Assembly (NCBI GenBank): GCA_021234155.1
Contig: JAJEKV010000052.1
Coordinates: 10,061,284-10,125,283 of the forward strand
Source of the DNA: Isoetes taiwanensis
Taxonomy: Eukaryota; Streptophyta; Lycopodiopsida; Isoetales; Isoetaceae
Length of the DNA stretch: 64,000 nucleotides
Reading direction: 5' to 3'
The notes under the pieces: generated by a model
What the model saw: only the letters and a program-made list of their open reading frames with translations
Told to the model about the DNA's origin: nothing
Databases searched by the model: none
Program-made: the position numbers and the translations under genes
In this document: in pieces, positions 38,415 through 61,923 of the stretch
How the letters are laid out: every line of letters begins with the position of its first letter
Numbering within the stretch: the first letter of the stretch is position 1

Positions 38415-39950
38415 TGGGACGTTCTAGGTATTTACACGGTATACGTATGCATACCATGACACGTCACCAACATGTAACTAGGCCCTAGGGGTCAATTGGG
38501 GTTACCTAAAATGGATTTTGTTAGCTATGCTAATAAGATTAATGGATAATTATGGATTTTATTAGCATAATTAACCTAATTATGCTAATTAGAGTATAAT
38601 TAATTAAATGTCCCCAATGGGCCACCTGGCCTAAATCGATTGGCCAAGAGAGACTTGCTATTTTGGGTGGAGAAATAGGGGTCCTACCCCTATTTTTGCC
38701 CAAATTCGAATTGGGAAAAGAGGAGGAGCAGCAGCTACCAGCCTTACCCAGTTTTTGCCAGTTCTTGCCATCAAACCCAAACTATGGAAGCCTTCCGTGA
38801 TAACGGCTCCAGCCAAGAGACTGGTTAGTCCCTAGATAGCTTCTATTTCGGCTAACACTTCTTTGAATAGATGGAATGATTAAATTCTCTTTCGTATGTT
38901 GTTTGGTTGGTGATGGATATTTAGATGGTGTTTGTATTCTTTCTTTCTGCTCCCTCCGTGTATTGGGGTTAAGGGATGGGTAGAGACCTAAAGGCCAGCT
39001 AGAAATAGAGATGTTCCTAGCTAGAACCCTTAAATCCTAGTAATTGCGGCCTGTGCACAAGAGCCAACCTGGCTGAGATGCTATGATGTGGTTCAAGTAT
39101 GACGGTGAATCGGGGGTGGGGTCCTGCCTAGCGCAGCTACAGGACTCCTATAGTGTGCTAGGCTTACTGGGTCCTTTGAGAGGGCTGGGGTATGGGTCCG
39201 ACACTCCCAGGTCATGAGAGGCGTTGCTTATATGGCGCCGGACTCCGTAGGGCGGGTGAGCCGACCTTTAGATTTAGGGGGAGTAAGTTAGTCATGATGC
39301 AAGGGTCAGCGATGTGGCGCGTGTTGTCTAGCACACCCAGGGGGATCCGGCTATGCTCTCTGGGGGGGGCCTCGACCTGGGCCAAGACGGACCGGGAGAT
39401 ATAACCCAGAGTAGTCCCGTAGGGTGATTCCTTGGGATTGCATCTCCGGAAGGCTACAAGCACGTCATAGCATGATTTAGCATATCTGCAAAGTGTGCAC
39501 AGGAGGGGCGGATGGAATAGACTACCCTAGCCATTGTCTTATGCCAGCCAACGCCATGTTATGTTTTCGTCTGCTGTTATCTTGAGGTCTGGTTGTCACT
39601 TGACCCCTTGGAGTCTGAGCCTTGGGTAGCGCCTTGTTATAATATATTGTTCATATTATTGATGGTTGTACTTTCCTGTCGTTGATGATGATGGATGGGC
39701 CACCCTTCGTGGTGGTATATTATTTTAGCATGATTGTTGTATGCGAACGTGTATGTATGCTTCCGCTGTATAGGATTTTCCATAGAGGACGTGGGACAAA
39801 TGACACCTCCGTGTTTCTCGCCCGGACACTTGGCCATCCCAAGCGGTCCGAGTATGACGGAGGGCCTTACCATGGCGATGTAATCGCCGTGGGAGGGGAA
39901 TTCCCGTATTTGTACGATGGGAGCATCGTATAGATTCCTGAAGAGTCATA
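38415..39950 (+). repeat. Element C 5' LTR (1,536 bp)
   Basis: Begins tgggacgttctagg (TGTGACGTTCC in the 3' copy) and ends gaagagtcata. It is colinear with 61924-63466, with many substitutions and short indels, so the element is old. The inverted solo LTR at 45827-47626 is a more distant relative, sharing for example the ccctccgtc-actcggacc box in reverse. Confidence 0.93.
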
Positions 39951-39951
39951 G

Positions 39952-39963
39952 TGGTATCAGAGC
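39952..39963 (+). other. Element C primer-binding site, initiator tRNA-Met
   Basis: TGGTATCAGAGC one base after the LTR end. It is the standard plant initiator-Met primer-binding site of chromoviruses and many copia elements. Confidence 0.95.
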
Positions 39964-40580
39964 ATGATTTTGGTGGACCAAATCATTGCACTGACCATAA
40001 TCTAACTTGTTAGTTGACGGTACTTTTTCTTAGGTTAAAGTATTCCAACTCTATAGTTAGCATGTGAGTGACCTAATTATGAGAGGAATAACTTAGCTGT
40101 GTAGGAGAGTGTTCTATAGTAGAGTGATTAGTGTTAGATGGTGGAGCCAGAGGTTCGAGTTTTGTAGGCGCCATAACTTTCTCTAGGGTATCTCGGATGG
40201 ACGAGATTTTTGCTCCAACGTGTCGGGCATGGACCAAATACCCCAAGGACGTCATCATCCGGCATCAAAATGGCATGAAAGGGGGCTAAAATCCTACTCG
40301 GGCGCCGCTCTAGTTCGGGCGTATCAGAATCTAAAATGGAGAACGTATAACCAAGGCAGCGCCCGACCGTATAAAATGCGGATACAGCCGTATAAAATTT
40401 TAAAAAAAAAGGGGCAAAGTGACGTTTTTCCTTTATTGTGCCTCCGTCACGTATCCGCCTAGCCCGTCCGCTAGCCGCCGGAGCTGAAGCTCAAAGCACT
40501 TTGCCTTTACTAGCACCCAATGCCACCCTCGCCCCTTAGCGCCTCCTTTCATGACTCTTTTCCACCTAGCGCCCATGAAT
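39964..40580 (+). promoter_or_regulatory. Leader of element C with TATA-like motifs
   Basis: No coding frame of note. Two TATAAAA motifs (40370-40376 and 40391-40397) lie 185-210 bp above the ATG at 40581, followed by a C/T-rich stretch. The MARTK ORF could therefore have its own promoter, but spliced expression from the LTR is equally possible. Confidence 0.35.
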
Positions 40581-41845
40581 ATGGCACGCACCAAAAGCAC
40601 CCAAAGCTATGGCACTCTTATTGTACCTCAAATTTTTGCTCAGCTAGGAGAGCATCTAGCTATCGACCATGTCACGGTCGAGTTACTCTTGGTCCAGCTG
40701 GTGCAACGTTTTGTTGCCGGGCAGAGGATACCATACCCTATCTTCCATCTCTCTGAGCACTTTTTGATAAAGCTTAACCTTCTTCAGTAGCCTTACACTA
40801 TAGTCGAGCAACCTGACCAAGTTATGATGTTGGTTAAGTTTTATCCCCCCATGTGCGAGGAAGTCCCTGAGGAGGAAGCTATCCGGAGAGATGCCGCCCG
40901 AGTCAGAGAGCTAGCCCTGGGGATGACACAAGGGAGATGGAGAGGGGGGACCCAGAGGCTCGGGGGCATGAATATATTTACCTGGGTGATGGGAGAGCCA
41001 TCATCAACTGCAACCACTTTGACCTTCCCCCATATGAATATGATGAGGCCACCCAAAGCTTTACTTGAGGTGAGGTCCCATCCCATTTTTCGCTAGATTA
41101 CCTGATAATGATTCAGCTGGACATGCAAGCCCGGCCAGACTGCTACCGTGCAGAGCTGATTCAAAGGATCACGGCCCGACGCTTTGCAGAAATGGAGGAG
41201 AGTATGGCTGCCACCCGTGCTGCTCTGGGAAGAGGCCGAGAGGGCTGAACAGCAGCGGCAAGAGGAGGAGCTTGCCAAGCAGACCCAGGACCAGCAGCAG
41301 CAGCAGGCCAATACAGAGCAAGAGACCCAGCAGGGCCCCGACCCGGCAGAAAAGCCTGCCGTTAAGAGACGGCACAAATCCACCACCCACAAGTCTGGGA
41401 GCCAGAACAAAGAAAAGCTCAAGACTGTTGGGGGTATTGGGAAGGCCACAAACACTGCCCGCCGGCAAGAACGAGTGGATGCGGCACGGCCGCACCCAGT
41501 GTCATGGGGCAAGACCTTGCGCAACGCAGACTCAGCGGGCGGTGACTCCAACATCGGTTTAAACCGGGCACAGTGGCCTTACGGGAGATCCGTAAGTACC
41601 AAAAGACCACGGAGCTACTATTACGGAAGCTTCCCTTCCAGCGGTTGGTTCGCGAAATTGCCCAAGAATTCAAGACAGACCTGTGGTTCCAAACTTTTGC
41701 CATATTAGCACTGTAGGAGGCTGCCGAGGCTTACCTAATAGCCCTTTTTGGCGATGCTAACCTTTGTGCTATCCATGCGAAAAGGGTTACCATTATGACG
41801 AAGGATTTGGCTCTCGCCCGAAGAATTCGGGGAGACCATAATTAG
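40581..41845 (+). pseudogene. Histone H3-containing fusion ORF in chromovirus leader
   Basis: Starts MARTKSTQSYG, the first five residues being those of histone H3. An unknown segment follows (PQIFAQLGEHLAIDHVTVEL; HFDLPPYEYDEATQSF), then helical ELIQRITARRFAEMEESM, a Glu/Gln-rich stretch (EEAERAEQQRQEEELAKQ) and a basic linker (KRRHKSTTHKSGSQNKEK). Codons 41549-41845 form an H3 fold aligned without gaps to H3 residues 38-135: [38 protein letters not shown], then [12 protein letters not shown] and LARRIRG. Relative to canonical H3 it has Arg83 to Trp, residue 87 Phe, Glu105 to Gly, Pro121 to Thr and a stop at Gln93. Loop 1 is not lengthened, so it is not CENH3-like. Stops (40788, 41549 upstream frame, 41693) and at least two frameshifts break it. 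Known: H3 pairs with H4 in nucleosomes. Inferred: the element captured a host H3 as the C-terminus of an accessory protein. Confidence 0.85.
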
Positions 41846-42071
41846 CTTGTTCATCAAGCATCTTCCTTGTATCAATTTTGTATAATATACGAATATAACC
41901 GACTTTTGTTAGAAAAATAAATAAATAAATAAATAAATAAATATAATAATTATTTAACTACTGACACTGACGTCAGCATAAAAAGTAAAAAGGGTACTTA
42001 GACCCTTAGGATTTCATTTGTTATCTCTTCTCTTCTTGTTTCCTCCTCCTCCTCTACGCCTTGCAGCGCCA
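41846..42071 (+). promoter_or_regulatory. (AAAT)n microsatellite, TGACGTCA box, pyrimidine tract
   Basis: After the H3 stop come about eight AAAT units (41908-41942). A perfect TGACGTCA palindrome (41968-41975), the binding site of plant TGA/bZIP factors, lies next to a TATA-like cataaaaag. A pyrimidine-rich tract ends in ccttgcag (42059-42066), six bases before the next ATG. So this could be a promoter for the acidic ORF or a 3' splice site feeding it. Confidence 0.45.
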
Positions 42072-43591
42072 ATGACGACCTCAACCCTCCTCCAATGGTA
42101 TCAGGACGGAGAGCACTGGGGCTCCCAAGTTCCCTTTGACCTCCTACAGCCCTTTTTGCTCCAAATAGACCTCATCGCCAACATGCAGAGCCATCCCGAC
42201 TATGCAGGCTTTCTTGGGTTTTATACTCAAGAGATGCTCCCTCTTTGCATTCCTTTAGGGGATCCACCCCGTCTCTACTTAGAGAGAGATGCGGTAAGAG
42301 AAATGCTGGGAGGAGACACGTATGCATATGATGTTTTCAAGGGCAAACTTAATGGAGCTGCAGTCCCCCAGTGGTGACACATGAGGGCCAACAATACCTT
42401 GAAGTGGCCTTCATGCTGGCCATTCTTATGGACCAGTACGTAGAGGATGACACCCTGCCGGCAGAGAAGGGCAAGGTACCTGAATTCTCGGATGAGGAAG
42501 AAGATGAGTACATCCGGGAGGATGACTTTGTCCGGTGGAAGCAGTTGGCAGAACAGATGTCGCCACACTGAGATCAGGGGGCACGGCTGACGAGATTGGA
42601 CGCCCTCACGGTTATCTATCACCAAGGGCAGGAGTTCCTCCTATTGGAGGATATCATGTGGACATACCATGTAGTGACCGGCTTGAAGGGCCGAACTAAA
42701 GCACAGGTGCTTTATGAGCTTGCAGAGTACTGCATGGATGACTTTATTGATTTTACGCCAGTTGAGCTCCCTACAGAGGTACAACAGCTGCTCCAATTCC
42801 ACCAAGAAACCATCGAGCCGGCTGATACCCTCCTTCGGCTAAGGGATCTTGTGCTTCAGGATCCTCCATCTCAGCCTCCTCAGGAAGCTTTTATGGCCAT
42901 GGGACCTCATGTCCCAAATATTAATATGGCCGACATTCCTTCCGAGTCGGATGAAGAAGGGGAAGATCCTTACCATAACCCCAGTCATCTAAGGGAGGAA
43001 AAACAAGAGCTTAAGGAGGAAGAGGTCACCATGGACCTCGATAAGGAAGTGGCTACCTCGGTCACACCAGAGGTTAAAGCATTGGGGAATCACCTCACAC
43101 ACTTCTTCCTATCTGCTTTTTTGGCAGGGACAGATCCTTTTTGTACCCGAGACCTAGCTCCGGAGGCCGAAGCATCGTGGTGGAACCTCCGTGCATTGTC
43201 CACCCTGGCCGGCCATAAGAAGCTCCCTTATCGCATATTCACTTATGTGCTAGTGCACTGGGACTTCGCTTTTACCGCCTTGGGTCAGGAGATAGCACTA
43301 TGGATGAGCATGAAGCTTCTTGTGGCAGCCCCTCTGGCCACTGCCTATCCACCAGAGGTTGCTTCTCTTGCGGCCACCACAGTTGATCCAGGGATTACTC
43401 TACTGCATCATCGGCCGCCACCATCACCTCCTACGCGGATACATATCAGGCATTATAGAGTATGGCCTTTGGCCGCTCCAATATATGAATTATTGCATCA
43501 ACACTTTCGATGCCTTTTTTTTAATACAGAAAAATTGTTTTTCCTACATTACTTGTCTCTCTTCTTGAGGACTTCGAAGTATAAGGAATGA
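42072..43591 (+). pseudogene. Acidic accessory ORF of chromovirus leader, unknown family
   Basis: About 500 codons with two lesions. It begins MTTSTLLQWYQDGEHWGSQ, runs to 42375 and then shifts frame (VTHEGQQYLEVAFMLAI), meets one TGA (42569-42571) and stays open from there to 43591. Parts: a globular N-terminus, an acidic patch (FSDEEEDEYIREDD), a helical central part (YELAEYCMDDFIDFTP), a second acidic stretch (IPSESDEEGEDPYHNP; EEKQELKEEEVTMDLDKEV), then a hydrophobic C-terminal domain (FFLSAFLAGTDPFCTRD; YRIFTYVLVHWDFAFTALG). I recognise no family. Acidic patches are typical of proteins that handle histones, which is of interest next to an H3-like ORF, but that link is a guess. From about 43420 on the frame looks non-coding. 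Confidence 0.55.
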
Positions 43592-44192: not shown

Positions 44193-45778
44193 ATGAAGCG
44201 ACAGCTTACTGAGCTTCAAGCATATGTATTGCAAACTAATCCACCATTGGAACACAGGAATATGGGCCTGAGATTCCTGTTTTACCGAACCAACAGCCAC
44301 CACCACCCGCACCAGCACCTGTGCCAGTTACAGCTACTCGATCTAAGAGAGCACGCAATAGTTCATCCTCTGATGCCACCTCTGAGTCTTCTAACTCATC
44401 GGATTCCTCTGAGAACGAGGTTGACTATGCAAAAGCTAAGAAAAAAGATTACCAGAAAACAGTGGACTCTGCCATCACTAGTATTTGGAAGAACCGTAAG
44501 TTAGCGCAGTTCTCATGAAAAACCAGGTCCAGAGTTGATGTCGAATCTTGGTTGGATGAAATGCAGGAGTTCGGCAAGTCGTATGGAATGACCGAGAAAG
44601 ATATTGGAAAAGTTGCCACCACAAACCTTACAGGGTCTGCCCGTATATGGTGGAAGGGATATGCCCGCTCTCACGGGCTGACGAGAGGAAGGTGTCGTTA
44701 TAAGGTCTTTGCTAAAGCCTTCAAATCTCATTATATTCCCAGATCTCATCGCTGTCAACAGATCCAAACCTTTTATCGCCTAGAACAGAAGAACGTGACC
44801 GTCACCGTCCAGTCATATACAGATGAGTTCATGAGGTGGCGTTTGTACGTCCCAGGGATAGATGAGCGCAGGGCAGTTGAGGGGTACATTGAGGGGTTAT
44901 CCCCTACCTTGAGGAAGATGGTTCGAGCAATAGACCCTAAAACAGTCGCAGAAGCAGAGGTTAAAGCCCTTAGCCTAGAAGAGGACGCTCCTAGGTACCA
45001 GCCATCGCGACCCTCTTCTTTTGGGCAGAACAAGGGGTGTACACCTTACAGAGGGCGCTCGCCTAGTCTGGGGCCTCCAGCCTCGACCAGATATCAGAAG
45101 CCAGAGAAGAAAGTCTCCTTTACAATTCCAGACAAGTCCACCAACACCACGGGAGCTTTCAGAGATATCCTCCAAGCCATTCCTAAGGAGGCTCGTGACC
45201 AGTTACGCCGGGACAGGGCTTGCTATCGGTGCTTCCGCCCAGGACACCATATGCAAGAATGCCCCTACATCACACAAACGGTGCAGGCCGCCCTTGCCGA
45301 AGTGGATTGGGAAGGTGCAAGGGGCCCAAACCATCCAGACAATGCTGCTGACGATGACGCGCCTGACTATATACAAGGTGAGTCTCATATCTCTGCTGGC
45401 ATTGAAACGGGCCAAGCCAACCATCAGCCTTCTGTCATTTCCACGGTTGGCCAAGTAGATTGTAAGCCTTTCATTATCCTCATGGACACTGGCAGCACGC
45501 ACAATTTTGTATCTCCTAGAAAAGAAGAGACGTTGCAGCTCATTCCCTTGAAGTCCAAGCCACGTCCAATTATGTTGGCCAGTGGGGCTGTACACCACAC
45601 ATGGGGTCGACGCATTAATTTGAATATTCAGCTGCCAGGAGCACCTGTTGCTCTAGGCGTGGAGATAATCTATATTGATCATTATGATCTCAATGTGGGA
45701 ATGGAGTTCCTGACTGCTGCCAAGGCCAACATTGATTGCAAGGAGTTACCTTTAATGCAGCCAACGGAGCCCAAGTGA
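44193..45778 (+). pseudogene. Element C gag and protease
   Basis: Begins MKRQLTELQAYVLQ, shifts frame near 44270 into a Pro-rich (PPPPAPAPVPV) and Ser-rich basic segment (RSKRARNSSSSDATSES), meets one TGA (44516-44518), then is open for 408 codons. The capsid domain reads WWKGYARSHGLTRGR and FMRWRLYVPGIDERRAVEGYIEGL. There is a single knuckle, CYRCFRPGHHMQEC (about 45219-45260), and a retropepsin, IILMDTGSTHNFVS with normal DTG, ending NVGMEFLTAAKANIDC. The reading continues in another frame past 45778 to the solo LTR. Gag and protease are fused as in chromoviruses. Confidence 0.92.
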
Positions 45779-47631: not shown

Positions 47632-48505
47632 GCCAGTTGCATAGGGCTATCAAGAAGTCTCGGATTATTGGCATGATTCGACTTGATTCAGTAGAAGCCA
47701 AGTCTGAACAAGATGAAGTTCTTGACACCTTGCCTCCAGCAATAGCAGTTGTTCTTCGGGAGTACCATGATCTTTTTCCCGAAGAAATTTACCGATTGCC
47801 ACCATTTAGAGGCGTGTAATGTGAGATTACCTTGGAACAAGGTACCAAGCCTACTAGTAAGGCTCCATATCAAATGAGTACTCCTGAATTAACAAATCTT
47901 AAGAAGCAGTTGCAAGAGCTCCTCAAATTAGGCTTCATTCGACCTAGTGTATCACCTTTTGGGGCCCTGATACTCTTCGTCAAGAAGAAGGATGGCACGT
48001 TGAGAATGTGCATCGATTACCGACAATTGAATAAGCATGCTATTAAGAATCGGTATGCTTTACCGCGTGCCAACGATCTGATGGATCAATTGCAAGGGGT
48101 TAAGTATTTTACGAAAATTGATCTTCGTTCGAGATATCACCAGATACGAATCAAGGAGGATGACATTCACAAGTCTGCCTTCCGGACGCGCTATGGGCAT
48201 TATGAGTTCATTGTGATGCCATTCGGCTTCACCAATGCCCCGACCACCTTCATGAGACTGATGAATGATGTCTTCCATGAATATCTTGATGATCTTGTCA
48301 TCATATTCTTTGATGATATCCTCATATACAGTAAGACCTTAGAGGACCATGAGTGGCATCTTGGGTTGGCCTTACAGAAACTGAGGCGCCACCAACTGTA
48401 TGCCAAATTCTCCAAGTGTCGGTTTGCAACTACCAAGGTTGATTACCTGGGACATATTGTGTCTGAGGAAGGAATAGCCACAGATCCAGCTAAGATTGAA
48501 GCAGT
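47632..48505 (+). pseudogene. Element C reverse transcriptase, 5' part
   Basis: From the protease-RT linker (LPPAIAVVLREYHDLFPEEI, one TAA at 47817-47819) into a clean [37 protein letters not shown] (first Asp), [15 protein letters not shown], and the catalytic [18 protein letters not shown] in place of the more usual YIDD/FLDD. It ends at [15 protein letters not shown] and DPAKIEAV, where element B is inserted. It continues at 59278. Confidence 0.93.
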
Positions 48506-48576
48506 TGTTGCCCCAATTTCTGGCTCTTTTGAGGCAACTATTCTGCTTTGGTATAGAACCTCCAAAACTAGTCTTA

Positions 48577-49280
48577 AGGGCCTAGTTCTACCCTTCAAAA
48601 CAGAGATTAAAAACGAAGGCAAACTTCCTTCTGTCTATTTCAAGAGAAAGAATTGCAAACGTGATCTGTTGTTTCAACCCTTAACCTCCTATTGCAAGGC
48701 AAGGAACGATTTACAAAAGGATGGTTTTGCATTCAGATAGGGAAGATTCTTTTGTAGGGCACACAAAAGATCCAAGTTCTCTCCCTCTTTTTCAAAGAAG
48801 AGAAATGGATCTGGAAGAACAATGCTCACCACCTTCTATTTGCTGGCAAAAGAAAATGATCTAGAAGGAGAATCTTTCTATTCCAATATGGGTGATATTT
48901 TGCAGAGTGCACAAAGATCCAGGTTCTTAAGGGCCTAGTTCTACCCTTCAAAACAGAGATTCAAAACGAAGGCAAACTTCCTTCTCTCTATTTCAAGAGA
49001 AAGAATTGCAAACGTGATCTGTTGTTTCAACCCTTAACCTCCTTTTGCAAGGTAAGGAATGATTTAGGAAAGGATAGTTTTACATTCAGATACGGAAGAT
49101 TCTTTTGTAGGGCACACAAAAGATCCAAGTTCTCTCCCTCTTTTTCAAAGAAGAGAAATGGATCTGGGAGAACAATGCTCTCCACCTTCTATTTGCTGGC
49201 AAAAGAAAATGATCTAGAGAGAGAGTCTTTCTATTCAAATATGGGAGATATTTTGCAAAATGTACAAAAGATCCAAGTTC
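48577..49280 (-). repeat. ~351-bp tandem duplication inside element B LTR
   Basis: The phrase cttaagggcctagttctacc opens both units (48577 and 48928) and both carry caagttctctccctcttttt. The same duplication exists in the other LTR (57750 and 58102), so it was present before insertion. Confidence 0.88.
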
Positions 49281-49821
49281 TCTCCCTCTTTTTCAAAGAA
49301 GAGAAATGGGTCTAAAAGGACAATATCTCAATCCAAGGCAGAACTCCTTTGCAACGGTATAAGGAAAAAAGGTGCAGTAATATGTGAAGAACAAGGAAAT
49401 AGAAAAGCAATTGGGACGAAATTATGCTTCTTGTATTCCTGAAAAGGGACTAAGAAATCGAAATAGCTTCCTTGAATGAATCCGAAAATGGTTTTAGATC
49501 AGCAAGAACATATCAAATGCATATGATTTTAACATTGCTTGAATAGAATAGAGAAAATAACAGTTCAATAACCCGGTTTTTGAAGAAGTCTCTGATGGAA
49601 ACGAAGCTTTTGTGAAATCCGTTCCCCCTGTAACTGAGTTCCCCCCGTTCTTATGCTTCTTGAAAAATACTTGCAGACAAAACCATACCTGGCAACTCAT
49701 AATTACAGGTACCACTTCCCTCCACGAATGTAGCAGCAATAAATTCTAAGCTCCAGCCACCAGTTCACGATCTGATTAACCCTAACTGTCTTCTTGGTAT
49801 TTTCCTTTTTTTTTTTTTTTT

Positions 49822-52053
49822 ATTATAACTAACAATGGGATGCTGGATGACATTTTATTATTATTTGACATTTTGAGAAATGTTGGCAGTATGACATTGG
49901 ACCAACATTATGACAACTTACAAATGACATAGATTTGCAGTTGTTGGCAATTGTGCAGGAAATACACTTAAAAAGGTGAATGCGGCTATGGAAATGGATA
50001 CACATGAAAAAATATCCTATATTATATTGTATATAGCTGAAATATTAAGGTATTTGGGCACCGGCCATGCCTATTATCAAATAGGACGAAAATGTTAAGA
50101 TACTTTCCAAGCAATATGGCAAATATGGTAAGAAAAATACTTCTTTGCTTCTTGCTTCTTATCGTTGATACAAGGGAAAATAGTGATACATATGCAAATG
50201 ACATGGATCTCTACATATGCCCGTATGTGACCTTTGGAATTGTTTTTTACAAGTTCTCACAACTATGGTTTCAGTTATGTCTCCAAAAACATGTCACTTT
50301 AGGGTAACATTTGTGACGAAATGGATGGCCGTAACTACAGTTAAGGCAAATGACCTTGCTATGGACAAGATGCAACTCGGCATGCCATGCAGGTAAGTTT
50401 TCTTATAAACAGGCCACATGGATGGCAATTCTGTTAGGGTTTGAGAGATACTATCTGCAAGTCTTGGCTTTGTGTAAACTAGCACAGACGGTAATAAGGA
50501 CTGGCAAAGCATTTTACCTAATATAACAGTGTCGCTCTCAAATATGGAAGACAAGTAGGCCATGCAAGCATAGAGCCGTCGAGCAAGCCAAGAGCTGCAT
50601 TCCGATATGCATCCTGCATTCAGATATGCATTCCAGTACACGCTGAAATTCTTCTTCTAATGTTGTAAGCTAGGATTTGCTATTTCCATGCTTTGGGCTA
50701 TGGCTAAAAAGAATGAAGACCTTGGTAATAAGCCTGCACACATATGCAGAGTGGCTGCAAATTCTATTGTAGATCCGGACAGGCATAAAATAGATGTTCA
50801 TGGCAGTAGTTTTGATCAGTGCACAAGCACATCAGACATGAAAAAAATGCTAATTCCAGCAAGCAAATGGAGCATGAAGCTGATGCAAATTCCAACAAAC
50901 AAATGGAGCATAAAGCTGAGCAAAGTTCACAACTGGACGCACATCAGGTTAATTCTTTGACATTTTGATAATGTAAGCAATTGCTTTCAAATATACAGCA
51001 GCTTAGTAGCTACATTAAATTAGCTTACTGTTTGCAAGAGCAATATAAGTTGAATTTTACATTGCACGTCTTTTGAGTCATCATATAAATTGAATTTGCA
51101 TAATATTGCACATTAGATGAACTTTTTGGACAGGGATCTACTTAAATGATTGTAGATATGTGTAATAAAGCTGAAAATTAGAGAACTATTTGCAGCATAT
51201 GCAGCATAGAAAGATGTGAGAAGTAACTCTCTGTAAATGACTTTGAACTTCTTGTGCATTTTGGCTTGGAGCTACGTGGTCTTCATATCTTTTTAAGAAA
51301 CTTGTAACTGAGCGGAAGGGGATAGTATGTTCTAGAATCTTAGAATGCATTGTGATGATAAAATGCATGTGAGAAACTCTGTTGCTAGTCCTGAGAGAAT
51401 CGAGCTGCACCATTTGGCCCTACAGTTAGCTACTGTGGTGGGTGTACATATTAATCTAAGGCTGCTTTCTAACTGTGATATACGGTTGGCAGCATAATAT
51501 GGTAAGGACATGCTAATAATGTAATAATCTGATGTTTGCATGTCTACACTATTCTTTTGCCCATTTCAGGGGACTTTTTACAAAGTGAAGGGTGGTAAAC
51601 CCAAGAAGTTCACAGCTTACCTGTTAGTAGCTTAGGCTTTTACCCATTCTTTGGCTAACTGTCCTCTGGTTCTACTGCAGGTAACCGAACTCCTTGCTCT
51701 TTGTTTTGAAGTTGTGAGAAATGCAATAGTTTATTCGTTTACACGGCATGAAAGCTAAGGATGATTCAAGATCAACTTTCAACATGGCTTCAACAGCAGA
51801 TATCACTTTGAAAGTATACTTTTTTATTCTCAAATGGCAATATATTTTGTGGTCTTGGATATAAAGATCAAGAAATGATTACTGTACTTCTTCTCAAAGT
51901 ATTTAATGGAATTAAATTTTTGATACTTTGTAACCAGATTAAGGCTTAGGTTAGTTGGCACCTGTTCTAACCTAAGGCTGCCAATTGTATCTGAAAATGG
52001 TCTTTGCATGAAGTCCATTGGATGGTAAAAGTCTGTGTAAACGGATTTAAGGG
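49822..52053 (+). mobile_element. 2,232-bp insertion of unknown type in element B LTR
   Basis: The LTR poly-T tract is present on both sides as T16 (49806-49821 and 52054-52069), while the other LTR has one run (58941-58957), so the T run is the target duplication. The interior begins attataactaacaatggga and ends gtaaacggatttaaggg. It has no terminal inverted repeats that I can see and no convincing ORF (longest 115 codons, no motif). A stretch at 51575-51692 is shared with 10085-10212. A non-autonomous retroposon is most likely; a captured intron-containing gene fragment is possible. Confidence 0.8.
51575..51692 (+). repeat. Dispersed repeat shared with 10085-10212
   Basis: Contains cagcttacctgttagtagct, acccattctttggctaac and ctggttctactgcaggtaac, in the same order as the copy 41 kb away. 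Similarity ends soon after gtaaccgaac. Confidence 0.7.
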
Positions 52054-52384
52054 TTTTTTTTTTTTTTTTCCAAATAGTCTTCAACGTTTTAACAAACCTA
52101 GATTTCAGAATAGAAATAGCAAACCATTAGAAGCCTAGGTTAACATGCATTTTTTTCTTTTCCATTTGGAATCCTGCATTTATACTGTGCTGTAGTAACT
52201 CCCCCACAACCATGAGTATGCCTTGGGCAATTTCATGAGGTGATCCAACTCACCAGGCCTTCAAAATATTCAGATGAGCACTCCAAACATCTCCAAATCT
52301 TTAGCTCCAAATAATCCTAGAAAAAAAACTACATGCCCAAAAAATGTCAGTACGGTGGACTTTGTTGCCTGAATCCAGGCAACA

Positions 52385-52432
52385 TGATGCCCAAAAAAAA
52401 CATTGGGCTGGTCCCCTCAGCTTTGAATGCTT
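52385..52432 (-). other. Element B pre-LTR tract
   Basis: Between the integrase stop and the 3' LTR, the element strand reads AGCTGAGGGGACCAGCCC, AATG, T8, GGGCATCA. Element A has the same order, so this is a lineage-typical polypurine-tract region displaced some 20 nt from the LTR edge. Confidence 0.5.
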
Positions 52433-53695
52433 CTAAATCCAGTATTTCTTCAAGAGATAAGCATTGACAGGATGAGGAAGTTGGTGCAGCTGCATGTCTG
52501 TAAGAAAATAAGAATTAGCACCAGCATGGCCTTGAACAAAAAAGGGTCCTTCCCACAAGTGTGCGAATTTGGGGGGCATTTTTTCTTGAGCTCGATTCCA
52601 CTTAAGGACAAGTTCCCCTTTCTGAAACTGATTATGTATCCTATTGTTTCTCGAGAATGTGGCCGCTTCTTTCTTTTTTTGTACTGTAATTTGCTCAAGT
52701 GCTTGAGCCCTGCCTTCGTCTAATGCCTCCAACATCATCAATCTATCCTCCACTGCTTTTGTTGCCGGTAAAGACTGCTGACATATTAGCTTGAGGGCTG
52801 GAATTTCAATATGAAGTGGAAGAGTGGCTTCGAGTCCATAAACCAACTCAAATGGAGTATGACCTGTAGCTATTTTTTGGGTAGTTCTAAATGCCCAAAG
52901 AGCGTTGGGTAGTTGCAGATGCCAATCACGTTGGGATGCATTAACTGTTTTTTTGAGGATGCCTTTCAAAACCTTGTTGGATGACTCTGCCTGCCCATTT
53001 CCTTGGGGGTAATAAGACGAACTCTTGGTATGCCTGATTTCGAGTTGCCTGGTCAACACTTGCATAGTATCATTCATAAACTGGCTACCCCTATCAAATA
53101 GAAGCTTTTGAGGCACTCCAAACCTGCAACAAATGTGAGTAAATATGAAGGAAGCGGTACTTACAGCAGTCGCTTCTCTCAATGGTACAGCTTCCACCCA
53201 TTTGGTGAAGAGGTCTGTTGCAGCGAGAATGTAAGCATGCTGCCCAGATGAAGGTAGCTCTATCTTTCCTATAAAATCCAGTCCCCAACATTGAAACGGT
53301 CCAGGTGAAATGATCCCCGTCAGTGACTCTGGCTGTAAGATCCTTCTCCCATGCAATTGACATTTTTGACACCGCTTAGTGTGCTCATGGCAGTCTCTAA
53401 ACATGGTAGGCCAATAATATCCTGCGCGCAGTATTTTCTTTGCTGTGGTATCTGCTGAGAAGTGCCCTCCGCAGATCCCTTCGTGACAGTCCTGCATCAC
53501 CAGCTCCTGTTCTTCTTCATCTAGGCATCTGAGGTAAATCCCATTTCTGTCTTTCTTGCATAAGACATCGCCCAACATGGCAAATCCTAGACATTTTTCC
53601 TTGAATCTCCTAACTGCGCTCTTGGTCAAGCCTTCTGATAGTGTTTGATATTGCAAAAACTTCTGCAATGGTGTCATCCAGGTACTTTCTGCCAC
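52433..53695 (-). CDS. Element B integrase, intact
   Basis: 420 codons without a lesion. The zinc domain is HEGICGGHFSADTTAKK plus RCQKCQ. The DDE core has Asp in CWGLDFIGKIE, Asp in LLFDRGSQFMND and Glu in GNGQAESSNK. The C-terminal part has FQKGELVLKWNRAQEK and HLWEGPFFVQG and ends VNAYLLKKYWI without a chromodomain. Inserts the cDNA into the genome. The start used is an internal Met; the protein is released from a polyprotein that continues upstream as the degenerate RNase H. Confidence 0.93.
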   Translation of the reverse strand: MAESTWMTPLQKFLQYQTLSEGLTKSAVRRFKEKCLGFAMLGDVLCKKDRNGIYLRCLDEEEQELVMQDCHEGICGGHFSADTTAKKILRAGYYWPTMFRDCHEHTKRCQKCQLHGRRILQPESLTGIISPGPFQCWGLDFIGKIELPSSGQHAYILAATDLFTKWVEAVPLREATAVSTASFIFTHICCRFGVPQKLLFDRGSQFMNDTMQVLTRQLEIRHTKSSSYYPQGNGQAESSNKVLKGILKKTVNASQRDWHLQLPNALWAFRTTQKIATGHTPFELVYGLEATLPLHIEIPALKLICQQSLPATKAVEDRLMMLEALDEGRAQALEQITVQKKKEAATFSRNNRIHNQFQKGELVLKWNRAQEKMPPKFAHLWEGPFFVQGHAGANSYFLTDMQLHQLPHPVNAYLLKKYWI

Positions 53696-53703
53696 GATGA
53701 TAT

Positions 53704-54180
53704 TTAAATCTGTTTCATGGATATCCTCCTCTGCAGTGATGTTATGAGAAAAAAAAAAGCGTAAGGCAGGTATAGGCTAGGATTTCGCCTACCATCAAAG
53801 ATTTCCACTTGTAGGTCAAACCTTGATAGCTTGACTGCCCATCTGTAAAGCTTGTCCTTTTTCTCCCCTTTATTGAATAGGATTTTGATGGGATTGTGCT
53901 TCATATCCACAACAAAGACCAACCCTGCTGCATATTTTTCATACTTGGGGTACCTTTCTTCTGTGCTGGTCCATTGTTTTCCAGAGTAAGCTATTGCTCT
54001 CTTTCCTTGTGTTAAAGAAATACCTACAGCTCTACTGGTGACCGTTTCTTGCTCAATATTTGGGGACCCTAAGGCTGGTTCCCTACTAAGAACTGCAATA
54101 ACAATTTCAAAAGCTTCTTGACATTCGCGGGTCCAGGTGATGGAGACATATTTGCTCTTGCCTTTCTCTACGTGTCCTAC
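53704..54180 (-). pseudogene. Element B second RNase H, degenerate
   Basis: Reads AVGISLTQGKRAIAYSGKQW, TEERYPKYEKYAAGLVFVVD, then LYRWAVKLSRFDLQVEIFDG. This is the fold of the Ty3 RNase H, but the first catalytic Asp motif is replaced (VTSRAVG) and the third Asp is also absent. The loss is shared with element A, so it is a trait of the lineage. The piece up to 53922 also has frame breaks. Confidence 0.75.
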
Positions 54181-54957
54181 TCATGTGAGCCTTGATATAG
54201 GATTGATAATGTGAGCAAAATTAGGAACATGCAGCCTGAGGAAGCTCATCATACCTATCAAGCGCTTCACTTCCTTCAAATTGCTTGGTGGTGGAAGCCC
54301 TTGGATAGCTGCTACTTTGTCGTCCGCCACTTGAATCCCTGCAGCTGAAACTTCATGGCCAAGCAACAGTCCCTTTTGGGTCCAAAAAATACACTTTTTA
54401 GGGTTAAGACACACGTTGAAATCCCTGCACAAAAGGCACAGTTGCCTGATCATATAGAGATGATCTTCTCTTGTGGTAGCTAGGCACAAATCGTCAAGAA
54501 ATATTCTGAAGTTTTTGGTAGGCATAGATCTGAATACTGTGTCCATTGTCCTTTGGAATGTTGAAGGTGCATTCATAAGCCCAAAGGGCATCCTTTTCAT
54601 GGCAAAGATCCCCCATGGTATAATAAATGATGTCTTTGGTTGGTCATCCATTTTCACACAGATTTGATTAAAGCCCGAAAACCCATCCAAAAAAGAATAA
54701 TACTGATTACCTGCTACAGCGTGCAAGACTTCTTCGAGAAATGGTAACGGATAGAAATCCTTAAGAGTTGCCTTGTTAAGCTCTTGGTAATCCTCACAAA
54801 TTCGTAGGCTCCCATTTTTCTTGCAGACCGGTACAATGCATGAAACCCAAGTGGGATTGATTACCTCCACAATAAGACCAGATTCCAACATCTTTTTTAT
54901 TTCGGCTTGTATCAAGGGCAATAGGGCTGGATTTATCCTCCTCAACTTCTGCACCAC
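54181..54957 (-). CDS. Element B reverse transcriptase
   Basis: 258 open codons. Motifs in order: LRRINPALLPLIQAEIKKML, SLRICEDYQELNKA, SFLDGFSGFNQI (here the second Asp of FLDDFSGF is Gly), FAMKRMPFGLMNAPSTFQ and the catalytic FRIFLDDLCLATT. The connection follows (CLNPKKCIFWTQKG, LLLGHEVSAAGIQVADDK). Domain length is normal. It follows the RNase H/linker with a one-frame shift near 54950. Confidence 0.92.
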   Translation of the reverse strand: MVQKLRRINPALLPLIQAEIKKMLESGLIVEVINPTWVSCIVPVCKKNGSLRICEDYQELNKATLKDFYPLPFLEEVLHAVAGNQYYSFLDGFSGFNQICVKMDDQPKTSFIIPWGIFAMKRMPFGLMNAPSTFQRTMDTVFRSMPTKNFRIFLDDLCLATTREDHLYMIRQLCLLCRDFNVCLNPKKCIFWTQKGLLLGHEVSAAGIQVADDKVAAIQGLPPPSNLKEVKRLIGMMSFLRLHVPNFAHIINPISRLT

Positions 54958-55706
54958 TGCGTTACCCCGGGTTTTAGTTTAATTTTGAACTCACAAACAT
55001 GAGTTAGTATTCCCTTCAACTCGTCATAATCCCAGGTGAATATATCTGACATCTCTTGGAGTGTCTTTTGTAGGATTTGTAAGTCTCCTGGTTCGATGTT
55101 CATTCCTACTGCCATCTGTCTTTCCTTCCCATTTTTTGTCACCAGAACTTGCTGCACACTTGTGTCTTTGCCAGTGTCTATCACCAAAACGGGATGCATA
55201 TGTTTTAGAGCATCTTCTGGGAGATCTTCCTCTGATATGGACTGTTCTTTCAGGTAATCCAATAAGGTCTCTCTACACACCAAATCAGCCTCCATATTGT
55301 CTCCTCTAGGGATGTGCTGTATGCTCCACTGTCCAAAGTATTTCAATTTCTCCAATGCTAGATTTTTGTATCTGCACATATCCTCATGCTTGGCCTAAAA
55401 TTCGCCGGTCAATTGCTTACAGACTAACATGGAGTCTCCAAAAATATGTAGCTGTTTAAATCCCAAATCCATTGCTTGATTAAGACCCATGAGGAGAGCC
55501 TCATACTCTGCCACATTTGAAGTTTTTCCTGACCGAGCAACTATTCTTTTACATGAGTCCTTAAGAACTGCCCCCGCAGCTGCCACTTGAGCCCTTTTTG
55601 AAATCCCACCATCAAACCATAAACTGGCAGTTTTGTTATGTTGAGATAATGGCCTCCTGAGCACTGTTTCCGAGACGACAGTTTTGTTTTCATCATCAAC
55701 CCACAA
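54942..55706 (-). pseudogene. Element B upstream RNase H and linker
   Basis: RNase H of archaeal/plant type, before RT: ASLWFDGGISKRAQV (Asp), TSNVAEYEALLMGLN (Glu), LHIFGDSMLVCKQL (Asp), then after a stop (55395) IQHIPRGDNMEADLVCRETL (final Asp). All four catalytic acidic residues are readable. The linker to RT runs ILQKTLQEMSDIFTWDYDEL. It digests RNA in RNA-DNA hybrids during cDNA synthesis. Apart from the TAG-type break near 55390 it is well preserved. Confidence 0.87.
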
Positions 55707-56386
55707 TGTCCTGTATTGTCTTCATGCTCAGTTGTTAAGGTTGCGTCAGAACTGTCTATCTCCCAAAGTCCCATGCCCTTAGACTGCAACAAGTCTTCTG
55801 CCTCCATGAACATGAGCTCCTCTCCACATGGCGGGCCAATTCCTGCCCCTTCTCTATTGTATAATACTGTCCTATTTGTGCCGTCTGTAATGGTACAAGT
55901 CCCCTGAGACCAAACTGGTCTAGCATCAACTGTACGCATCCATTTCCGTCCCAAAATCAGGTCATACAAATTACTGCAGTTGTCTGAGCCAAAGGACACC
56001 ACCACGAAGTCTGTGATGGCAAGTACTCCTCCCACATCAATATTTACATTGGTGATCATCCCTATGGGCTTAACTTTGTGGTTTACAAAAGACTTCAACA
56101 TGAGTGTGGTAGAAGCATCAATCTGCATCTTAAGTTTATGCATGATATGTAAGGGCATAACATTCAACCCTGAACCCCCGTCTAAGAATACATTTTTCAG
56201 AGTAACATTATTGAGCACGGCTTCACACATGAAAATACCTGGGTCAACATTTGCTTTGGGTAATACGAGATTCATGGCACAGTATTCTTGATCTTCCTCC
56301 ATGAGCTTGAAGAGTTGTTCCCTGTATTTTGGGGCTGCTTTGAGTAAGGTCACCAGGTCTATGTTGACCCTCGCATTCTTTAACAA
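55707..56386 (-). CDS. Element B protease
   Basis: Retropepsin-like domain with active-site motif VFLDGGSGLNVMPL, then VVSFGSDNCSNLYDLILGRKW. DGG replaces D[T/S]G exactly as in element A. Reading continues from MLKNARVNIDLVTLLKAAPK. It should cut the Gag-Pol polyprotein; catalytic competence with Gly in place of Thr/Ser is uncertain. The frame runs on past 55707 to about 55541 but is out of phase with the RNase H. Confidence 0.8.
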
Positions 56387-56523
56387 CTGTGCTATTTCAC
56401 AATTGTCTGATTGTTGTTTCTGCTCTGCTTTGTGAGTTGGAGCAGTAACTCTTGGAGAGTCTTTTACCTGCTGTACCCTGGTCTGAACTGCAAGGACCTG
56501 CTCCCCTTCTTCATGGACTTCTA

Positions 56524-57640
56524 CTAGGCAGAAGGTGTGCTGGCTTCCTCCTTTTTAGCATTCTTATCTCGATCTTGCTTAGAGAGGTACTTTTTTACCA
56601 AGCACCTATCATCTAAATGCCCAACTTCTTTACAAAATGAACAGATTGGGCACTCTCGCCCAAAGTGCCCTCTTTTCCCACATTTTTGACATGGTTTTGA
56701 AAAACATCTAGCCTCCAAATGTCCCATCCTATTGCAGTAAGTACATACTAACCCGGAGTTTGAGGGAGAAGTCTGCTGCTGGCTTTTGACTGCTTCTGCT
56801 AACTGTTTGGAGACCTCCATTAGGCTTTGCATGCTCAGTTCCAACTTACTTGTCGCCTTAGCAACCTCAGCCTTAATTTCTTCTTCCAACTTTGTCTTCT
56901 TATCTTTAGCGAACGTTGCTAGACACGGTTCTACTTCTTGATCCCACTCATGATGGTTGTAATCAGCTGCATACCCTGGTCCTTCTTCCTCAGGTAAAGA
57001 ATGCTGCAGTTTTGATAGTTCTATGGCTTTAGAGAAAGCTTTATAGACTGAATCCAATAACCCCAAACTTTGCAGCTTGAACATTTTCCTGTATAACCTG
57101 AAATGTGGTTTTAAACCCGCCACAAAAAAACACACCATATGATCCGTAGGTGTTTCCACTTTCTGTTCCTGACGTCTCATGAGATAAGAATTAAATCTCT
57201 CCACAAAAAGGTGTATGCTCTCGCCTCTCCTAATGGTCATGGTGCAAATCTCTTGTACCAAACCATTCTTGGTGCTCACAGTTCCAAATCTTTCCAAGAA
57301 ATTATGCACCAATACCTCCCATGGTTATTTGGCAGCTCTGTTGATAAAGAAACCATCCCTTGGCATCTCCTTTCATTGCAAGGCCAAAAACTGAAATCTT
57401 GTCACCTTTCTTCTTGCCAAAGTCTGCATAATATTCCTCAAAGTGACTCGAAAATTCAGTGGGATTTTTAGATCCATCGAACGTAGGTACTGGAGTAGGC
57501 AGATTCACCTCGATTTGATAGGGAGGAGGCAGAGGAGGAGGTGCTGCCACTGCATTGCTACCTTCTCCTGCATCTATTTCTCGTGCATCAGCTTCACCTG
57601 TATGTTTCCCTTTTGGCGGCATGTTCATGTCCTTAGACAA
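56524..57640 (-). pseudogene. Element B gag with three zinc knuckles
   Basis: Starts with MNMPPKGKHTGEADA, then a Pro-rich part (PPPLPPPYQIEVNLPTPVP) and the capsid-like FEEYYADFGKKKGDKISVF. After a frameshift near 57305 it continues NFLERFGTVSTKNG, HLFVERFNSYLMRR and a coiled-coil-like helix (KTKLEEEIKAEVAKATSKLE). Three adjacent knuckles follow: CTYCNRMGHLEARC, CQKCGKRGHFGREC, CSFCKEVGHLDDRC. Most Ty3/gypsy gags have one. Ends at a stop at 56524. Confidence 0.9.
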
Positions 57641-57656
57641 TGCTTAGATCCAAGGT

Positions 57657-57674
57657 ATCTCGGTAGGACCTCCA
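57657..57674 (-). other. Element B primer-binding site, tRNA-Gln type
   Basis: On the element strand, TGGAGGTCCTACCGAGAT starts five bases after the 5' LTR. From memory of plant tRNA-Gln, at least the first 13 bases are a perfect complement of its 3' end. One base differs from element A's site. Confidence 0.72.
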
Positions 57675-57679
57675 AAGAA

Positions 57680-59272
57680 TGTTGCCCCAATTTCTGGCTC
57701 TTTTGAGGCAACTATTCTGCTTTGGTATAGAACCTCCAGAACTAGTCTTAAGGGCCTAGTTCTACCCTTCAAAACAGAGATTCAAAACGAAGGCAAACTT
57801 CCTTCTCTCTATTTCAAGAGAAAGAATTGCAAACGTGATCTATTGTTTCAACCCTTAACCTCCTATTGCAAGGCAAGGAATGATTTACAAAAGGATGGTT
57901 TTGCATTCAGATAGGGAAGACTCTTTTGTAGGGCACACAAAAGATCCAAGTTCTCTCCCTCTTTTTCAAAGAAGAGAAATGGATCTGGAAGAACAATGCT
58001 CACCACCTTCTATTTGCTAGCAAAAGAAAATGATCTAGAAGGAAAATCTTTCTATTCCAATATGGGTGATATTTTGCAGAGTGCACAAAGATCCAGGTTG
58101 TTAAGGGCCTAGTTCTACCCTTCAAAACAGAGATTCAAAACGAAGGCAAACTTCCTTCTCTCTATTAAGAATTGCAAACGTGATCTGTTGTTTCAACCCT
58201 TAACCTTCTTTTGCAAGGTAAGGAACGATTTAGGAAAGGATAGCTTTACATAGGGAAGATTCTTTTGTAGGGCACCTCTTTTTCAAAGAAGAGAAATGGA
58301 TCTGGGAGAACAATGCTCTCCACCTTCTATTTGCTGGCAAAAGAAAATGATATAGAGAGAGAGTCTTTCTATTCAAATATGGGAGATATTTTGCAAATGT
58401 ACAAAAGATCCAAGTTCTCTCCCTCTTTTTCAAAGAAGAGAAATGGGTCTGGAAGGACAATATCTCAATCCAAGGCAGAACTCCTTTGCAACGGTATAAG
58501 GAAAAAAAGGTGCAGTAATATGTGAAGAACAAGGAAATAGAAAAGCAATTGGGACGAAATTATACTTCTTGTATTCCTGAAAAGGGACTAAGAAATCGAA
58601 ATAGCTTCCTTGAATGAATCCGAAAATGGTTTTAGATCAGCAAGAACATATCAAATGCATACGATTTTAACATTGCTTGAATAGAATAGAGAAAATAACA
58701 GTTCAATAACCCGGTTTTTGAAGAAGTTTTTGATGGAAACGAAGCTTTTGTGAAATCCATTCCCCCCATGAATCGAAGTTCCCCGTTCTTAGCTTCTTGA
58801 AAATACTTGCGACAAAACCATACCGACAACTCATAATTACGGTACCACTTCCCTCCACTTAATGTAGCAAGCAATAAATTCTAAGCTCCACCCACCGGTT
58901 CACGATCTGATTAACCCTAACTGTCTTCTTCGTATTTTCCTTTTTTTTTTTTTTTTTCCAAATAGTCTTCAACATTTTAACAAACCTAGATTTCAGAATA
59001 GAAATAGCAAACCACTAGAAGCCTAGGTTAACATGCATTTTTTTCTTTTCCATTTGGAATCCTGCATTTATACTGCGTTGTAGTAACTCCCCCACAACCA
59101 TGAGTATGCTTTGGGCAATTTCATGAGGTGATCCAACTCACCAGGCCTTCAAAATATTCAGATGAGCACTCCAAACATCTCCAAATCTTTAGCTCCAAAT
59201 AATCCTAGAAAAAAAGCTACATGCCCAAAAAATGTCAGTACGGTGGACTTTGTTGCCTGAATCCAGGCAACA
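57680..59272 (-). repeat. Element B 5' LTR (1,593 bp)
   Basis: On the element strand it starts at 59272 with the hairpin TGTTGCCTG/CAGGCAACA (59251-59272, 4-nt loop) and ends GGGGCAACA at 57680. A TATAAAT (59066-59072) lies about 200 nt in. It carries the ~351-bp tandem duplication and one T17 run where the other LTR has its insertion. Confidence 0.93.
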
Positions 59273-59277
59273 GCAGT

Positions 59278-59895
59278 GAAGGATTGGCCGATTCCAACCA
59301 ATGTGTCTGAGGTTCACAGCTTTTTGTGGTTGGCCGGTTATTACCGTAAGTTTGTCAAAGACTTTGCCAATCTCGCCGCGCCCTTAACGGACCTAACCAA
59401 GCATGAAAAGATTGGGGATTGGATGGCACACTGGAAAGACAAAGTTCAAGCCGGATTCCAGTCATTGAAGGATGCTTTGACAATGGCCCCAGTTCTCACC
59501 TTGCCAGATCCTCAGAAGGATAAGTGGGTCGATCGCCACGGATGCTAGTAAGATAGCTACCGGTAATGCAAGAAAGTCGGGTCATCGAGTATGATTCTAG
59601 AAAAATGAATGATACAGAACAACAATACCCCACGCATGATCAGGAGTTGCTTGCGGTTGTGCGTGCCTTGCGTATTTGGAGGGATTATTTACTTGGGAGG
59701 CGATTTCAGTTGGATACTGATCAGCAAAGCCTCCAATACATTTTCATGCAACCTCACCTCAACTTGAGACAAAGACGATGGATGGAATTTCTTGAGGAAT
59801 ATGAGTTTGAGGTCATCTATAAGCCGGGCAAGCATAATGTTGTTGCTGACGCGCTTTCCAGACATCCATTGGTCACTCGAACGCATCAATTGTAA
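59278..59895 (+). pseudogene. Element C RT 3' part and RNase H
   Basis: Continues the split [27 protein letters not shown] and [14 protein letters not shown]. The RNase H follows with frame breaks near 59540: [12 protein letters not shown] (Asp), THDQELLAVVRALRIWRDYL (Glu), FQLDTDQQSLQYI (Asp), KHNVVADALSRH (Asp). All four acidic residues are present, so this element, unlike A and B, uses the standard RNase H after RT. Confidence 0.92.
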
Positions 59896-61447
59896 TGCTA
59901 TATCCATGCTCTCTAGTGAGTTTGGGAAGCAGATACAACAAACTCTTCCCATGGACCCAGAATTCCAGGAAATATGGCAGAGTGTATCCAAGGAGGCCAG
60001 AACAGACAAGGAAAGGGAGGCCTTTTGCCATTACAAGAAGGAAGCTGGACTCCTTTATTATATTGTAAGTTATATGTTCCCGAGACATCCGGGGTTCGTA
60101 AGCTCATTCTTTATGATACACATAGCAGTCCCATAGTGGGGCATGCAGGATTTATGAAGACATATTTCAAGATCCGCTCCACTATTTTTGGCTAGGCATG
60201 AAGAAGCACATTGCTAGATACATTAAGCAATGTCAGATCTATCAGCAAACGAAGGCTGAGCAAATGCATATTCAAGGGAACTGCAACTCCTAGATGTTCC
60301 CAATACAAAATGGGAAGTTATTACCATGGATTTTATCGTGGGGCTTCCGCGCACCTTAAGGGGTTTTGATGCCTTAATGGTGGTGGTCGACAAACTTTCT
60401 AAGATGGCACACTTTCTGCCATGTCGTACCACGGACACTGCATTGGACACCACCTTGTTATTTACCAAGGAGGTATTTCGTCTTCATGGGATGCCCCGTA
60501 CCATTATATCGGACCGGGATCCTAAGTTTGTTAGTGCATTCTGGAAAGATTTCTTCAGCACTATTCAAACTAAGCTTGCCATGAGCACAACTTATCATCC
60601 CCAAACAGATGGTCAAACAGAGCGTACCAATCGCATAATTGAAGATATGCTACGTAACTACGTCTGGAATAAGCAATCTCAATGGGCAGATTATATATTT
60701 GGTAGAGTTTGCCTATAACAGCACTAAACAAGAGTCCTCAAGGATGTCTCCTTTTATGATAAATTATGGCTATCAATGCCTCACTCCGGACACGTGGCAT
60801 AATCCAGTTTCCAAGGTAGGTGGAAGTTTCTCAGTAGCTGCTTACAGATATGCAGGCGCTTGTGGAAGAAGTTAGAGCATACTTGCTAGCTGCGAGAGGT
60901 CGACAAAAGTCTTGCCGATCGACATCGGATGCTGCGAGAATTTCAGGTCGGTGATTCGGTTTGGCTAAAGATCAAGGTGAAGCAAGCCAAACTTAAAATT
61001 GGCAATTGTAAAAAGCTTGCACCTAGATGCACGGGTCCTTTTCAGATAACCGAAAGGATAGGTTCTCAGGCCTACCGATTGGAGCTACCTGCACATTTAA
61101 AGATCCATAAAGTTTTCCACGTAAGTCTTCTCAAGAAGCATAATCCTGATCTAGAAGAGGTTCTTGACACACTAACACTTCTGGAGATGACCGAGGATCA
61201 GTTGGAGATTGTGTCTGAAGCTCTCCTTGATCGCGCATATAACCAAACCCGTCGAACTCAAATTTTGCAATACTTGGTTAAGTGGAAACACTTACCCACA
61301 GAAGACGCAACATGGGTTCTTAAAGCGGATTTGGACAAGACTTACCCAGACTTTATGAAAGAATGTCGGGGTCAAACCATTCGAGATGCGATCAACTCCA
61401 ACCCTAACGGTAAGCATTGTGTTATGCGTCCGACAGGGGTCATATGA
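59896..61447 (+). pseudogene. Element C integrase with chromodomain
   Basis: N-terminal zinc domain: HSSPIVGHAGFMKTYFKI, then YIKQCQIYQQTK, where the second Cys of the C-x-x-C pair is Tyr. Core: ITMDFIVGLPRTLRG (Asp), TIISDRDPKFVSAFW (Asp), QTDGQTERTNRIIED (Glu). C-terminus (60929-61447): VGDSVWLKIKVKQAK, GPFQITERIGSQAYRLELP, HKVFHVSLLKKHNPD. The chromodomain is at about 61240-61370: RRTQILQYLVKWKHLPTEDATW. Chromodomains of this kind steer integration to marked histone H3 tails. Stops at about 60196 and frame changes near 60060, 60715 and 60870 break the ORF. Confidence 0.93.
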
Positions 61448-61908: not shown

Positions 61909-61923
61909 TCCAAGGGGGGAGAA
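61909..61923 (+). other. Element C polypurine tract
   Basis: ccaaggggggagaa lies directly against the TGTGACG start of the 3' LTR, the expected plus-strand primer. Confidence 0.9.

Follow-up and report, generated by a model that had tools for sequence, protein, structure and literature searches.

A high-copy chromovirus of Isoetes taiwanensis with an accessory protein that ends in a host-type histone H3 core

How does the core of histone H3 come to lie between the 5' LTR and the gag gene of a plant retrotransposon, and is it still a working part of an element protein? The question is raised by a decayed open reading frame, ORF1, in a stretch of 64,000 bases of the Isoetes taiwanensis genome (G000:C1059:10061284-10125283), which we refer to here as the window. 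A first-pass annotation of this DNA had placed ORF1 in an LTR element, element C, and had proposed that a host H3 was captured there as part of an accessory protein. It had assumed a fern host; I. taiwanensis is a quillwort, of the class Lycopodiopsida. Our analysis bears out that a Ty3/gypsy chromovirus carries a host-type H3 within one of its accessory proteins. We regard it as practically certain that ORF1 of this high-copy chromovirus encodes a protein of about 410 amino acids, consisting of an element-specific N-terminal domain, a basic linker and a host-type H3 core, and that it has been kept by purifying selection. The explanation as a whole is on balance probable; its mechanistic part, in which this fusion protein would act as a chromatin tether, is somewhat less likely than not.

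Element C is laid out as follows, with all features on the plus strand.

38415..39951, + strand: 5' LTR of element C, decayed
39952..39963, + strand: primer binding site TGGTATCAGAGC, which we take to be of the tRNA-Met type
40581..41220 (end approximate), + strand: N-terminal domain of ORF1 (N-domain), decayed
41221..41551 (start approximate), + strand: linker of ORF1, Gln-rich and then basic, decayed
41552..41845, + strand: H3 core (residues 39-135) and stop codon TAG, from Pfam, PDB and alignment
41846..42071, + strand: spacer separating ORF1 from ORF2; an (AAAT)n repeat lies at about 41913-41943, the palindrome TGACGTCA at 41968
42072..43591, + strand: ORF2, a decayed accessory ORF
44552..45778, + strand: gag capsid and protease, with zinc-knuckle matches under the cut-off
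47832..48740, + strand: reverse transcriptase; at about 48506 pol gives way to a nested element
59566..59895, + strand: RNase H
60326..60718, + strand: integrase core
60929..61447, + strand: integrase C-terminus with a chromodomain at about 61217-61360 (PF00385, E 4.4e-9)
61912..61923, + strand: polypurine tract AAGGGGGGAGAA
61924..63467, + strand: 3' LTR

The window thus holds the LTRs, primer binding site and polypurine tract of a Ty3/gypsy element, with gag, protease, reverse transcriptase, RNase H and integrase in Ty3/gypsy order, and the chromodomain at the integrase C-terminus (36.6 bits, with a cut-off of 25.1) places it among the chromoviruses. The 5' LTR begins with TGGGACG, compared with TGTGACG in the 3' LTR. 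Between the paired LTRs (38415-39977 and 61924-63493), identical stretches alternate with strongly diverged ones, and on the 3' side the similarity extends about 26 bases beyond the LTR end, through the primer binding site. The nested element (48506-58956) is a younger LTR element whose LTRs are 94% identical and whose genes lie on the minus strand. Reverse transcriptase ORFs that belong to a different kind of element, with RVT_1 matches below the cut-off, were seen at 6908-7885 of the window and at L078:5262-7316 (-); the former overlaps a 99% duplicated stretch (6546-7150 and 8033-8639). ORF2 gave nothing above the cut-off against Pfam, and its counterparts are open over 353 codons at L071:282-1340 (-) and 432 codons at L075:3-1298 (-).

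Some smaller signals accompany the two accessory ORFs. A pyrimidine-rich tract ending in AG, resembling a splice acceptor, lies shortly before the ATG of both ORF1 (40550-40580) and ORF2 (42040-42072) in the window, and a tract of this kind also precedes ORF2 in eight unbroken copies (L067, L069, L071, L072 and L074-L077). The palindrome TGACGTCA contains ACGTCA, a hexamer known from histone promoters in plants. GACGTCA occurs within 330 bases after H3 in seven of the eight unbroken copies and in 13 of 31 window-type copies. One further TGACGTCA was seen in the window, which is about the number expected by chance.

In the window copy, bases 41552-41842 align without gaps to H3 residues 39-135 and run directly into a TAG at 41843-41845. 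Identity to plant H3 is 77 of 97 residues, and the 20 differences include an internal in-frame TAG at 41714-41716. The histone profile PF00125, which the first-pass annotation had suggested as a check, matched both pieces of this core (E 4e-17 and 2.6e-14), and PDB H3 chains were matched with E values of 2.7e-25 and 1.2e-16. The gapless alignment, which had been drawn from residue 38, held from residue 39 to 135, whereas its start had to be moved: residue 38 is Gln in the window copy, and the stretch just upstream does not line up with that of the other copies, where KPHRF or a close variant stands in most cases. As described earlier, ORF1 is decayed here, being interrupted by stops and frame changes; it was read in three frames. 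We found no counterpart to the second H3-like end that had been claimed. Upstream of the fold in the window copy, scores for a canonical H3 tail did not exceed those of shuffled sequences, which reached the tail score in 57 of 200 and 28 of 150 cases in two runs. In other copies, too, the H3-like stretch starts at about residues 36-38, with non-tail sequence preceding the fold. A simulation on the window copy alone indicated conservative changes with P values of 0.005-0.08, depending on the setting, a suggestive result that is superseded by the multi-copy tests described below.

Copies were sought across 1,658,258,908 bases in 1,110 contigs; the numbers of first-look candidates given here are rough and should not be taken for numbers of copies. 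Using 40581-41845 as a DNA query, we scored 40 of 1396 such candidates and obtained 42 listed matches; leaving aside the window's match to itself, those over the full 1265 bases are 75-86% identical. Of 39 window-like copies fetched, 35 contain the H3 core in whole or in part, and six of these (L025, L028, L029, L032, L034 and L046) retained fewer than 80 codons of it. L044, L045 and L047 gave no H3 match and the match in L040 was not H3, the first-search matches of these four having stopped before H3. A canonical H3 query, for which 150 of 9022 candidates were scored, recovered among these 15 host H3 genes (96-98% identical) and, at 71-86% identity to H3, a further 135 H3-like copies. In 49 of the 135, the match ran without a stop within an open frame 400 or more amino acids long, and an element-type core was found in all 15 of the 135 that were fetched. 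Eight unbroken ORFs of 408-421 amino acids contain, in natural sequence, the N-domain, linker and H3 in a single frame; PF00125 matched the one in L074 with E 2.5e-41, and the whole H3 fold is present. The window core is 89-90% identical to the H3 of another of them, L072. An N-domain query (150 of 3610 candidates scored) yielded matches that were all at least 77% identical, dozens of them in frames open over 400 amino acids or more.

Two of three unbroken ORF1s that we traced downstream continue into ORF2, gag-protease, integrase, chromodomain and a related LTR, with gag-protease 64-66% identical to that of the window. The fusion in one open frame, which the first-pass annotation had named as a test, recurs in further copies that share this gene order. 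Gag, protease, reverse transcriptase, RNase H and integrase were all found in L080; reverse transcriptase and RNase H were not found in L079, and the chromodomain stretch of the window was matched in both. The third unbroken ORF1, in L074, is followed by ORF2 and then by other sequence. The LTR pair of the L069 element shows 45 mismatches in 1600 columns (95.3% identity), indicating a fairly young element, and no 5' LTR of L072 was found in the stretch fetched.

Could a processed H3 pseudogene simply have inserted by chance into one copy? The AAAT repeat about 70 bases past the stop does resemble a worn poly(A), and the fold begins without a tail. The fusion is nevertheless present in 35 of 39 window-like copies and in diverged subfamilies, so that the H3 is not solitary and a single processed pseudogene is ruled out. 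Nor do the flanks show the TSD that the first-pass annotation had associated with such an insertion: 41000-41560 and 41870-42030 have no word of at least 7 bases in common, a shorter duplication being compatible with this result. We give chance insertion a negligible probability.

Copies were also picked by gag, with 102 of 17874 candidates scored. A scored H3 or ORF1 match was located upstream, on the same strand and within 12 kb, for 13 of the 102 gag matches, and in 10 of these 13 cases it lay 2.7-3.04 kb from gag; the control on the wrong strand or side gave 2 of 102. This count included all 135 H3 matches, all 102 gag matches and 30 of the 42 ORF1 matches, the shorter ones having been omitted. 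From the other 89 gag copies, 20 were drawn at random and 900 bases at the expected place of H3 were inspected. H3, whole or in part, was seen in 12 of the 20, and a decayed H3 just past the inspected 900 bases of L085 raised this to 13. The remaining seven had no H3 within the stretch inspected. In two of them, L092 and L098, ORF2 was present at about 42% identity and the stretch fell short of the place of H3; in L088, L093, L095, L097 and L099 neither accessory ORF was found within it. L087 and L101 carry other H3 types, with differing states in the 86-105 region (FQAF... and SDANL), which suggests that several old lineages of element H3 may exist.

Within ORF1, constraint is strongest on H3. 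By Nei-Gojobori counts over the eight unbroken ORFs, pN/pS was 0.045 for H3, 0.156 for the N-domain and 0.308 for the linker. For H3 in 15 element copies it was 0.036 (bootstrap 0.012-0.069), compared with 0.046 in 15 host genes; both the 15- and the 8-copy sets were found through H3 similarity, which favours low values. Copies selected by gag avoid this bias and gave 0.108 (bootstrap 0.077-0.145), with n = 7, these being the copies left from the 12 with H3 after omission of the partial or broken L084, L087, L089, L094 and L102. In 27 decayed window-type copies the value was 0.18, owing partly to decay after insertion. Window-type rows entered the first pN/pS estimate if 90 or more codons were aligned (28 of 37); for the trees and later estimates the minimum was 92 (27 of 37). 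A comparison of L069 with L072 gave identities of 96/98 for H3, 92/94 for the integrase core, 61/67 for the C-terminal part of integrase, 352/392 for gag-protease, 84.7% of 249 for ORF2, 156/205 for the N-domain and 75/107 for the linker.

These values bear on whether the H3 fragment is a functionless passenger that was captured and then spread by hitchhiking, as in Pseudocercospora fijiensis, where hAT transposons multiplied H3 copies that were later inactivated (PMC6710886). The broken window copy and the decay of many window-type copies fit such a history. A pN/pS of 0.036-0.108, the many unbroken ORFs and an H3 far less diverged than the remainder of ORF1 do not, and we consider a passenger very improbable.

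Constraint is also seen at individual sites. We assumed 29 core positions to contact DNA, H4 or the second H3 (11 of Arg type, 5 Lys, 5 in the H3-H3 bundle and 8 hydrophobic). At 28 of them all 15 copies have a residue also seen in the host, and K79 was kept in 14 of 15. Among the gag-selected copies (n = 7), sites 42, 64 and 72 were altered in one and sites 128 and 131 in two. Window-type copies have derived states relative to host H3 at positions 41, 57, 62, 86, 87, 89, 101, 102, 105, 107, 121, 124 and 125; changes at 86, 87, 89, 102, 105, 107, 124 and, mostly, 125 are nearly universal in the element. Residues 87-90 form the patch by which chaperones distinguish H3.1 from H3.3, and an altered choice of chaperone is a reasonable guess from the changes there. 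Host-like constraint across the fold is best explained by a core that still pairs with H4, in a nucleosome or in a chaperone complex; we predict that the element H3 is likely to pair with H4 and to dock on nucleosomes.

An alternative use of the same residues would be packaging, with the H3 core and basic linker condensing element RNA or cDNA in gag particles much as a nucleocapsid does. It would suit a basic linker placed directly before the H3 core and the occurrence of ORF1 and gag in one element, and the fact that some viruses encode their own histones also speaks for it. However, the sites assumed to contact H4 and the second H3 are conserved no less strictly than the Arg residues that contact DNA, which would be needless for simple condensation. 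We judge packaging to be improbable.

What precedes the H3 core is more variable. When compared with the unbroken ORF1 of L072, three pieces of the window N-domain show 49, 52 and 62% identity, and a piece of the window linker shows 47%. The N-domain gave nothing above the cut-off against Pfam and PDB, no relatives were confirmed in the viral and prokaryote contig collections scanned, and two AlphaFold models from shallow alignments were poor (mean pLDDT 42.3 and 50.7). In the window copy, the ATG at 40581 opens MARTKSTQ..., which had been taken for a remnant of the start of H3. MARTK was seen in the window's subfamily alone: 14 copies out of 32 covered there have it, counting the one in the window, but none of the eight unbroken ORFs does, their starts being MAITK, MATTK or MANTK. 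The common feature is thus MA-x-TK, and the relic interpretation was abandoned. MARTK may mimic the tip of H3 in one subfamily.

Where did this H3 come from? Trees separated host from element H3 cleanly (1.0 with 57 sequences, 0.999 with 64). As they were built from host and element H3s, a single capture is the simplest reading of this split and not a proof: one old capture, retained by selection, would account for it, and multiple captures from one extinct or unsampled H3 may also have occurred. Synonymous sites between host and element are saturated (mean pS 0.926), and third-position GC is 0.39-0.49 in host genes versus 0.54-0.66 in the 15 element copies, so that the capture looks old and is beyond dating by synonymous sites. 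L086 retains H87 and Q125, states found in host genes, as would be expected of an early branch. CENH3, which has a divergent core and a longer loop 1, was rejected as a source, since the 15 best copies fetched align gaplessly to canonical H3 and are close to it.

How might the protein act? The H3 core would pair with the host's H4 along the pathway that H3 and H4 normally take (chaperones and nuclear import), and the element H3, its tail replaced by the element's own 300-amino-acid part, would then be deposited in nucleosomes or dock as an H3-H4 dimer. Such a chromatin-bound handle could keep the complex of gag and integrase at target chromatin, alongside the integrase chromodomain. We propose this tether for the integration machinery tentatively, as one possible mode of action; because the N-domain has no recognised relative, its own part in tethering is a guess. 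It is also conceivable, if doubtful, that a tail-swapped H3 variant and host H4 form parasite nucleosomes in chromatin, which would mark or hold sites of integration and expression.

A different consequence of the missing tail would be protection from silencing. If the element H3 entered chromatin over the element or its cDNA, replacement of the modifiable tail (K4, K9 and K27) would leave such nucleosomes without silencing marks. The start of the H3-like stretch at about residues 36-38, without a canonical tail upstream, and the retained core surfaces are in line with this idea. The integrase chromodomain, though, is of a kind thought to prefer methylated H3, which counts against it. We therefore find an anti-silencing histone unlikely and favour the tether as the mode of action of the fusion protein.

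Genetic parasites that encode a core histone fold are known among viruses, in the form of the bracovirus H4 and the histone doublets of Marseillevirus. Their carriers are large DNA viruses, not retrotransposons, and none of them is known to have an H3 core at the end of an element protein. PMC6710886 describes hAT transposons that captured H3 in the Dothideomycete fungi P. fijiensis, in which 90% of H3-like sequences are truncated and all but the original gene are inactivated, and Pyrenophora tritici-repentis, in which many H3 copies are potentially active. There, too, a mobile element captured and amplified an H3 coding sequence; unlike these DNA transposons, the Isoetes element is an LTR retrotransposon, with H3 fused in frame and strongly constrained (PMC6710886). 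ORF1 resembles the aORFs of plant LTR retrotransposons in being an extra ORF outside gag-pol in many copies of a family, whereas aORFs mostly lie between pol and the 3' LTR, and the word "histone" is absent from the main text describing them (PMC7264820). Orchid Ty3/gypsy elements with an m6A RNA demethylase domain are likewise reported to have acquired and kept an extra domain, one that differs from the Isoetes H3 in kind and function (PMC9289625). "Histone" is also absent from the main text of the genome papers on I. taiwanensis (PMC8566536) and I. sinensis. A literature search by title and start of abstract, mostly outside subscription papers and preprints, returned no retrotransposon with a conserved H3.

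If our reading is true, one of the best conserved proteins of chromatin has passed into the service of a retrotransposon and has stayed under host-like constraint there, which would give a mobile element a direct route to enter, mark or evade chromatin. A core histone would then join the host functions captured by retroelements, and a natural tail-replaced H3 would be available to structural work. The long-standing question of how chromoviruses choose heterochromatin and survive in it would thereby become testable.
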